Below, piece after piece: positions 57,240-59,312 of a stretch of 64,000 nucleotides of DNA. The position numbers were made by a program, and so were the translations under genes. The stretch comes from Planktomarina sp. (lineage in GTDB: Bacteria; Pseudomonadota; Alphaproteobacteria; Rhodobacterales; Rhodobacteraceae), in contig JAHDCF010000001.1 in NCBI GenBank assembly GCA_020630015.1, positions 81,946-145,945 of the forward strand, given 5' to 3'. Within the stretch, counting starts at the first letter, position 1; each line of letters opens with the position of its first letter. The notes under the pieces are model-generated. The model was not told the origin of the DNA. It worked only from the letters and a program-made list of their open reading frames with translations, and made no database searches.

Positions 57240-57623
57240 TTAAGGAAAGTTAAGCTGCTTTCCCTCTTCGATCCGGAATGGTGTTGGTGGTGTGGTTTTG
57301 GAGACCCAAAAATATGTGCCGGCGTATTCCATCACCAGCCACCCTTCCCATTCTGTGTCGCCGGGCCAAATGCTTTGATATTCACTGGCATCATCGCTGA
57401 CGCGCCATTCCCCACGGGCCGACCGCGCCCCTTGGGCGGCATAAATCGTGATACCATCTTCACCGAAATATTGGCGATAGGATTGCCCTTCCCAATGGCC
57501 CACGGCGGTATTGCCCGTCAAAAGCGCGCTGATTTCATGGCTTTGCAGTTTCACAGATTGCCCCTGCACCGCACCCGCCAAAGACATCAAACCCGACAGC
57601 ACCAGAATAAATATACGTTTCAT
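57240..57623 (-). CDS. Secreted hypothetical protein
   Basis: MKRIFILVLSGLMSLAGAVQGQ signal peptide; 127 aa. Confidence 0.65.
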   Translation of the reverse strand: MKRIFILVLSGLMSLAGAVQGQSVKLQSHEISALLTGNTAVGHWEGQSYRQYFGEDGITIYAAQGARSARGEWRVSDDASEYQSIWPGDTEWEGWLVMEYAGTYFWVSKTTPPTPFRIEEGKQLNFP

Positions 57624-57729
57624 GCAGCGTCCCTTCCCTTCTGGGGCAGAGTATTTCCATCTTCGATCGCCGCTGCAAGATCACAACGCAACCCAACCCA
57701 TCAAAAGGTTAACGGTCAAAGGGCGAACC

Positions 57730-57745
57730 TTAACCTTGCCTTAAC
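57730..57745. promoter_or_regulatory. CtrA-type binding site (TTAA-N7-TTAAC)
   Basis: TTAACCTTGCCTTAAC, perfect match to the alphaproteobacterial CtrA full-site consensus. Confidence 0.6.
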
Positions 57746-57796
57746 AAATCAAGAAAATTTGTTAACACATCCGGCTTTCGCGCAAAATGCACCTTC

Positions 57797-57838
57797 GGTG
57801 TACGGGGTGTGTACAGGGTGTGTACGGGTTGTGCACAG
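57797..57838. repeat. Four tandem 9-11 bp iteron-like repeats
   Basis: GGTGTACGG|GGTGTGTACAG|GGTGTGTACGG|GTTGTGCACAG. Confidence 0.8.
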
Positions 57839-57851
57839 CCGTTCGCCCGGT

Positions 57852-59312
57852 TCATAAATCGTATAACACACCGAACTTATCGTTAAGATATGCCATCAAA
57901 GGGGCCTCTGTCGGGGCAAAACCGCAGGCATCTTGGATGGTCTGCGTTGGTGTTTTCAGACCGCCAAATCTTTGCAGATTGTCCCGCAACCAGCCCGTCG
58001 CCTGGGCCGTGTCACCCTGCGCCAATTGGGTATCCAAATCCGGTATCGCCGCACGCAATCCTTGATGCAAACATCCGGCATACACATTGCCCAAGCTGTA
58101 GGTCGGGAAATATCCAAACAACCCAACCGACCAATGCACATCCTGCAAGCATCCGTTCGACGCACGATCCACCGCAAACCCGAAATCTGACTTGAACCGA
58201 TCGTTCCAAGCGGTTTCCAAATCCGCGACGATCAAATCCCCAGACACAAGCGCGCGTTCCAAATCAAATCGCAGCAAAACATGCAGATTATACTGCACTT
58301 CGTCGGCCTCTGTCCGGATGAAACCATCGCTGACCCGGTTCACGACCTTATAGAACGTGTCAGCGTCAGAAACACCAAAATCTCCAAAGGTTTCAATCAT
58401 TTGTCCATAAAGCCACCCCGTGAAGGCGCGGCTGCGGCCCAGCTGGTTTTCATAGATGCGGGATTGGCTTTCATGCACCCCCATCGACACACCATGTCCG
58501 ATGGATGTGAGGGCAAAATCTGGGTCGATGTTTTGCTCATAACAAGCATGACCGACCTCATGTATCGTGGAATAAAAGCAATTGAACGGATCGCGTTCGG
58601 CCGTCCGCGTTGTGATACGTACATCGGCCCCAGACCCGCTGGAAAATGGGTGCACCGCCTTATCAATCCGCCCTTTGTTTAGGTCATATCCAAAGGTGGT
58701 GGCCAAGGTTGTGGACAAGGCCAACTGCCCCGCCTCATCAAACGCATGATCCAATTCTGACGGTGCTGATCTTTCCAAAATCGCGGCACGCAAATCCACC
58801 AGCCCCGGCCGCAACGCGCCAAACATCGCATCCAAATCTGCGGCTGTTATTCCCGGCTCGTAATCTTGCAACATCGCATCGTAAACATCCCCACCGTTCG
58901 CAAGGGCAGCACCTTCTTCACGTTTCAGCGCCAATATGTTTTCCAGAACCGGGGCAAACGCCGCAAAATCATCCGCCGCCCGCGCCGCCGCCCAATCCCC
59001 TTGGGCTTGTGACGTGGCAGCGGCAATGGCAGAGGCAAGATCGCTGGGCACTTTTGTGGCTCTGTCAAAGGCCTTACGGATTTCGCGCACTTGCGCCTGT
59101 TCAACCTCTGAAACGGGTGACGCTTTGCCCAACCAATCGCCGATGCGCGGATCACAACGGCGGGCATGCAAAACCGCTTCGATTGCTGCCATTTCCTCCG
59201 CCCTTTGTGGGGCAGATCCGGCGGCCATCATGGTTTCTTGATCCCACCCTAACCGGCCTGCGATTTGGGCTAAGGCTTGGGTCTGGCGATCGAACTGAAG
59301 AAGCTCTTTCAT
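57852..59312 (-). CDS. Carboxypeptidase M32 (Taq family)
   Basis: DVRITTRTAERDPFNCFYSTIHEVGHACYEQN HEXXH; HESQSRIYENQLGRSRAF. Confidence 0.94.
   Translation of the reverse strand: MKELLQFDRQTQALAQIAGRLGWDQETMMAAGSAPQRAEEMAAIEAVLHARRCDPRIGDWLGKASPVSEVEQAQVREIRKAFDRATKVPSDLASAIAAATSQAQGDWAAARAADDFAAFAPVLENILALKREEGAALANGGDVYDAMLQDYEPGITAADLDAMFGALRPGLVDLRAAILERSAPSELDHAFDEAGQLALSTTLATTFGYDLNKGRIDKAVHPFSSGSGADVRITTRTAERDPFNCFYSTIHEVGHACYEQNIDPDFALTSIGHGVSMGVHESQSRIYENQLGRSRAFTGWLYGQMIETFGDFGVSDADTFYKVVNRVSDGFIRTEADEVQYNLHVLLRFDLERALVSGDLIVADLETAWNDRFKSDFGFAVDRASNGCLQDVHWSVGLFGYFPTYSLGNVYAGCLHQGLRAAIPDLDTQLAQGDTAQATGWLRDNLQRFGGLKTPTQTIQDACGFAPTEAPLMAYLNDKFGVLYDL

Follow-up and report, generated by a model that had tools for sequence, protein, structure and literature searches.

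A dispersed intergenic element of GTGYAC arrays and helically phased TTAAC motifs in Rhodobacteraceae, a candidate protein-docking site

A CtrA-type sequence found near a small secreted-protein gene in Planktomarina sp. forms the left arm of a larger, composite element built around an array of 11 bp GTGYAC units. On sequence grounds, and with a probability of roughly 0.5, the site belongs to a dispersed composite DNA-binding element, i.e. a candidate array for protein docking that is shared across the family, has a lineage-specific arm resembling a CtrA site and would act locally in chromosome architecture or as a boundary. Rather than a switch for the 127-amino-acid secreted protein encoded next to it, the element is probably a site of general chromosome binding. 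Features of the element and its neighbours in the window, which is the whole 64,000-nucleotide stretch of DNA analysed, are as follows.

57240–57623, minus strand: gene of the 127-amino-acid secreted protein, the left neighbour, with its start facing the element (Pfam match sub-threshold only).
57705–57737: inverted repeat AAGGTTAA-N17-TTAACCTT (arms 57705–57712 and 57730–57737).
57708–57713: GTTAAC, the TTAA core of the left arm that lies farthest from the array, and one core of the 21/11/21 spacing.
57730–57745, plus strand: CtrA-type full site TTAA-N7-TTAAC, TTAACCTTGCCTTAAC, at −67 and −56 from the array start.
57741–57765: inverted repeat TTAACAAAT-N7-ATTTGTTAA (arms 57741–57749 and 57757–57765), particular to the window copy.
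57761–57766: GTTAAC closest to the array, 35–36 bp to its left, the commonest left-arm position.
57797–57840, plus strand: core array of four 11 bp units, GGTGTACGGGG TGTGTACAGGG TGTGTACGGGT TGTGCACAGCC, seen in the sequence and in repeat and pattern searches.
57852–59312, minus strand: M32 carboxypeptidase gene, the right neighbour, with its stop codon 12 bp from the array (Pfam PF02074, E = 1.3e-161).

At the DNA sequence level, TTAACCTTGCCTTAAC is an exact TTAA-N7-TTAAC match, as claimed in the preliminary description, and is the only one in the window. Taken alone it is weak evidence, because 0.19 occurrences are expected and 15 of 100 shuffled sequences have at least one. Genome-wide, a pattern search gives 29 exact matches. 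The reversed pattern, with 47 matches, proved a poor control since AATT is probably commoner than TTAA, and it was replaced by spacing scans. N7 is the peak TTAA spacing, with nine places compared with zero to five at the other spacings between 0 and 25 (mean ∼2), in 464 kb of the same genome; this sample, together with pattern searches, is the basis of the genome-wide statistics. The CtrA-type N7 spacing is non-random in this genome. TTAA cores are present at four start positions, 57709, 57730, 57741 and 57762, and their spacings of 21, 11 and 21 bp are about two, one and two helical turns. Both of the nested inverted repeats described earlier at 57705–57765 are present in the sequence, and that with the N17 spacer arises because the GTTAAC motifs are phased. 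Three other copies of the element (L087, L154 and L091) have a TTAA-N7-TTAAC of the same form and in the same place.

These properties raise the question of a plain CtrA promoter, where phosphorylated CtrA on the full site and the half-sites would regulate the 127-amino-acid protein gene. The exact full site is ∼107–122 bp upstream of the start codon of this gene, the N7 spacing is enriched, and ctrA and chpT are both found in the genome. The ctrA gene is on the same contig, ∼66 kb from the window site (C14:72737–73411), and its product is 73% identical to Caulobacter CtrA. The chpT open reading frame begins at ∼63808, at the end of the window as first reported, and continues past it into the contig (Pfam HPTransfase PF10090, E = 1.3e-11). 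However, a search of the region upstream of chpT revealed no CtrA full site, and the nearness of chpT lends no weight to CtrA control. Separately, TTAACCAT and TTAA half-sites are found 34–50 bp upstream of the ctrA start (L054), and these would fit possible CtrA autoregulation.

The 127-amino-acid protein had been viewed as the obvious target, a proposal not borne out by comparison with relatives. Its gene is a rare accessory gene, present in three of 20 congeneric genomes at an identity of at least 62% (its own included), and orthologues with 62–66% identity are found in two of 19 congeners. In both congeners (G019 and G011) the orthologue follows a gene that we take, from reading the sequence, to be gcvT, directly in one and behind a 74-codon open reading frame in the other; the regions upstream of these orthologues, when searched, had no TTAA cluster and no CtrA-type site. 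In the Planktomarina genome under study the gene is in the gap between gyrA and the M32 gene. In the close relatives G019 and G013, the M32 gene converges directly on the 3′-end of gyrA, identified from a reading of the reverse strand, and neither the 127-amino-acid protein gene nor the element is present in between. Since neither gene nor site is conserved in this gap, the gene is not a conserved target of the site, and its candidacy as a conserved CtrA target is rejected on synteny. Thus, of the initial CtrA reading, the full-site form, the enriched spacing and the presence of ctrA and chpT stand, but the target gene does not. In addition, TTAA clusters in the same register are found beside ∼30 unrelated gene pairs, six of which are convergent and offer no promoter. 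A plain CtrA promoter is considered quite unlikely.

The core array starts 31 bp beyond the right end of the 57705–57765 interval and was omitted from the preliminary description. When the whole intergenic region is used in a search, the repeats found at other places in this genome and among other species match its right part and not the TTAA part. The unit is 11 bp in length, GTGYAC-N5 ([G/T]GTGYAC-N4), and is repeated head to tail two to six times, mostly three or four. There are ∼33 arrays genome-wide (53 and 68 overlapping pattern matches, and two further arrays on contigs C5 and C12), and a genome-wide search with the mirror pattern gave no matches. All 31 arrays examined are intergenic, according to gene calls by a codon-usage gene caller made for this analysis. 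Spacers between motifs differ among copies, and the motifs and their phase are retained.

Two arrays on contig C53, at 71057 and 72509 (L147, G000:C53:69000-74500), are in near-identical copies of the element, ∼1.45 kb apart and in the same orientation. The pair brackets a transglutaminase-like gene and a MerR-like regulator, and it looks as if a cassette entered or was duplicated at the element. An array lies within a few hundred bases of the end of several contigs (C3, C11, C18, C64 and C68 of G000; G011:C46; G337:C21; G229:C7), which suggests that assemblies tend to break near arrays.

TTAAC/GTTAA motifs flank the arrays at regular distances. Relative to the array, they start at 13–14, 24–25, 35–37, 46–47, 56–57 and 67 bp on the left, and at 12–13, 21–23, 33–34 and 44–45 bp on the right. 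For the left motifs, a scan of periods of 6–20 bp puts the strongest phasing at 10.5 bp, with a Rayleigh R of 0.80 (48 motifs in 29 copies), a value reached in none of 5000 circular-shift nulls, and in none of 1000 for the maximum over periods, although this null takes positions as more independent than copies with shared ancestry may be. Right phasing has an R of 0.68 near 11 bp (25 motifs in 29 copies; 0/5000 nulls). A separate species, G019, replicates the left phasing in the same phase (R 0.77, 0/10000 nulls). Descent alone does not account for different turns being occupied amid unrelated spacers. TTAAC is found in 27 of 29 left flanks compared with 14.7% of 100 bp noncoding windows. Of 31 left flanks, 8 contain a TTAA-N7-TTMA pair, which is at exactly −67 in four; most other spacings occur zero to two times. 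Left TTAAC motifs and the array are offset by about half a turn. In the window copy, a right arm is not clearly recognisable.

With respect to gene context, the gaps holding arrays are convergent in six cases, divergent in four and tandem in ∼17, and the corresponding background gaps of at least 120 bp number 8, 48 and 71, a rough comparison because the element itself lengthens the gap. There is no promoter bias. Arrays also show no bias in strand relative to tandem genes (∼7 versus 9) and no clear bias along chromosomes (8/9 in Paracoccus and 17/10 in Roseovarius, ori and ter being unmapped); replication-polarity sites resembling KOPS were rejected on these counts. A plasmid origin of the arrays was rejected as well, there being no plasmid match. 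A functional theme was sought among genes flanking the arrays and none was seen. The gap types and the absent strand bias speak against the element being a promoter switch, an RNA element or a signal of replication polarity.

At the RNA level, the arrays might represent a small RNA, terminator or untranslated-region motif transcribed with adjacent genes. They are often found immediately downstream of a stop codon or a short distance ahead of a start codon, and the window copy folds better than shuffled sequences (z −2.1 and −3.2). However, for two other copies the fold z-scores are −0.7 and −1.9 and the structures differ, tandem gene pairs display no strand preference, and helical phasing is a signature of double-stranded DNA. 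An RNA family is rejected, with no Rfam match and inconsistent folds over the three copies, and an RNA-level element is deemed highly improbable.

Positions of arrays are conserved phylogenetically. Arrays are found beside the same genes as those of the Planktomarina genome in 8 of 16 cases in G019, in two in G011, in the sole case in G013 and in one in G048, which belongs to another genus. A comparison of 245 arrays reveals recurrent places across genera, i.e. after gltD, before lpdA, and at arfB, bolA, prfC and leuD, gene identities that we take from reading protein sequences rather than from a family search. The array after gltD is found in the Planktomarina genome and in Leisingera, Lentibacter, Nioella and Paracoccus records. 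At recurrent gene borders the array is retained, mostly in the same orientation, and neighbouring noncoding DNA has diverged.

In a sample of 385 genomes of the class, array matches are limited to the Planktomarina genome and one genome outside the family, and the latter is likely a chance match. Matches in a scan of named records are almost all from Rhodobacteraceae. Two others, L225 and L277, are metagenome-assembled genome records labelled Flavobacteriia and Planctomyces, and these contigs may be mislabelled or contaminated. In viral collections, only five contigs have the array pattern (IMG/VR, L318–L322). Core arrays appear confined to Rhodobacteraceae, or nearly so. Their abundance is patchy between genomes. 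In many other genera most arrays are without TTAAC arms (112 such arrays); in these, phasing is marginal on the left (R 0.26, 204/5000) and strong on the right. The missing TTAAC flanks in many genera suggest that the core array probably came first and that the TTAAC arm is particular to a lineage.

Several of these properties resemble those of a REP- or MITE-like dispersed repeat that has no host function and was copied about, then slowly decayed in place: copies are dispersed in every gene orientation, abundance differs between genomes, the C53 pair is near-identical and the neighbours share no theme. Yet spacers vary where motifs and phase are kept, and position and orientation are constant across genera despite diverged flanks. 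This origin is unlikely.

The ∼100–150 bp element consists of a directional array core and, in this lineage, flanking TTAAC/GTTAAC motifs in register at 10.5–11 bp. Under the docking-array proposal, each helical turn of the core may hold one DNA-binding protein, which would read it much as winged-helix regulators of the OmpR/PhoB family do, and CtrA or a relative may bind the TTAA-N7-TTMA pair present in about a quarter of left flanks; CtrA at the TTAAC arm is plausible. The regular phase would imply an ordered nucleoprotein complex on double-stranded DNA, and helical register with head-to-tail units argues for a protein filament or a multi-protein complex. Occurrence in all gap types, on either strand and beside unrelated genes, yet at fixed gene positions across genera, suggests that the element acts locally in architecture or as a boundary, and not as a promoter switch for the secreted protein. 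Such a role might be 3′-end or operon-junction insulation, supercoiling, or nucleoid docking. More broadly, and only tentatively, Rhodobacteraceae may carry unrecognised family-wide sites of chromosome architecture or boundaries, in which directional 11 bp GTGYAC arrays at fixed gene borders have a putative reader protein and, in some lineages, are coupled to CtrA by helical phasing.

A literature search on the motif, on intergenic repeats and on 11 bp repeats in Rhodobacteraceae found no description of the element, most subscription papers being outside its scope. Should the element prove to be a docking array, it would provide a handle on transcription-unit or nucleoid organisation in a large, mostly marine bacterial family, and the reader protein could be searched for directly with array DNA as bait. 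Four of ∼12 intergenic TTAA-N7-TTAAC full sites examined adjoin arrays. In these genomes, a TTAA-N7-TTAAC match need not be a promoter site, and CtrA regulons based on the motif would be inflated.

Compared with known systems, the left arm shares with the CtrA full site of Alphaproteobacteria its exact sequence and spacing, and the spacing is enriched in a genome that encodes ctrA and chpT. It differs in that it is embedded in a dispersed array element, is found in convergent gaps too and is not conserved with the adjacent gene. OmpR/PhoB-family operators are similar in having direct repeats at ∼10–11 bp; the 11 bp period is found in all arrays, and head-to-tail units one helical turn apart are consistent with one protomer per unit. 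These operators differ from the array in promoter location, and to our knowledge the GTGYAC core matches no motif of this family. Several OmpR-like paralogues are encoded in the Planktomarina genome and none is linked to the arrays. CenR was rejected as the array reader, as its motif in Rhodobacter sphaeroides, TGA-N8-TGA (PMC9275681), does not fit the array.

Tandem DnaA boxes resemble the array in having 9-mer-like units head to tail at an 11 bp period. Read as 9-mers TTGTGYACR with 2 bp spacing, the arrays could titrate or load DnaA; set against the DnaA box consensus and the box spacing of oriC, the final unit commonly reads TTGTGCACA, a single mismatch away from TTATGCACA. However, most units contain GTGTAC with further mismatches to TTATNCACA, reading TTGTGTACG/A, and ∼33 dispersed sites resemble neither an origin nor a lone titration locus. 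A DnaA box cluster is given next to no credence.

REP/BIME elements and Escherichia coli gyrase sites (PMC6379681) share with the array element a dispersed, extragenic location, as in BIME-2, a size of ∼130 bp and helical periodicity. A strong site for DNA gyrase or another DNA-wrapping protein, where phased flexible steps over ∼130 bp favour wrapping, would be in keeping with the size and the 10.5–11 bp period, which fit the E. coli gyrase motif of ∼130 bp with 10.75 bp periodic flanks and an unphased centre (PMC6379681). But the gyrase motif is degenerate, whereas the array centre is strictly periodic and sequence-specific, and the half-turn offset between the left TTAAC motifs and the array also counts against such a site, which is quite unlikely. 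The stable hairpin from an imperfect palindrome that typifies REP/BIME has no common counterpart over three copies of the element. The element differs from both in being an array of short head-to-tail units that has a specific core and is nearly restricted to one bacterial family.
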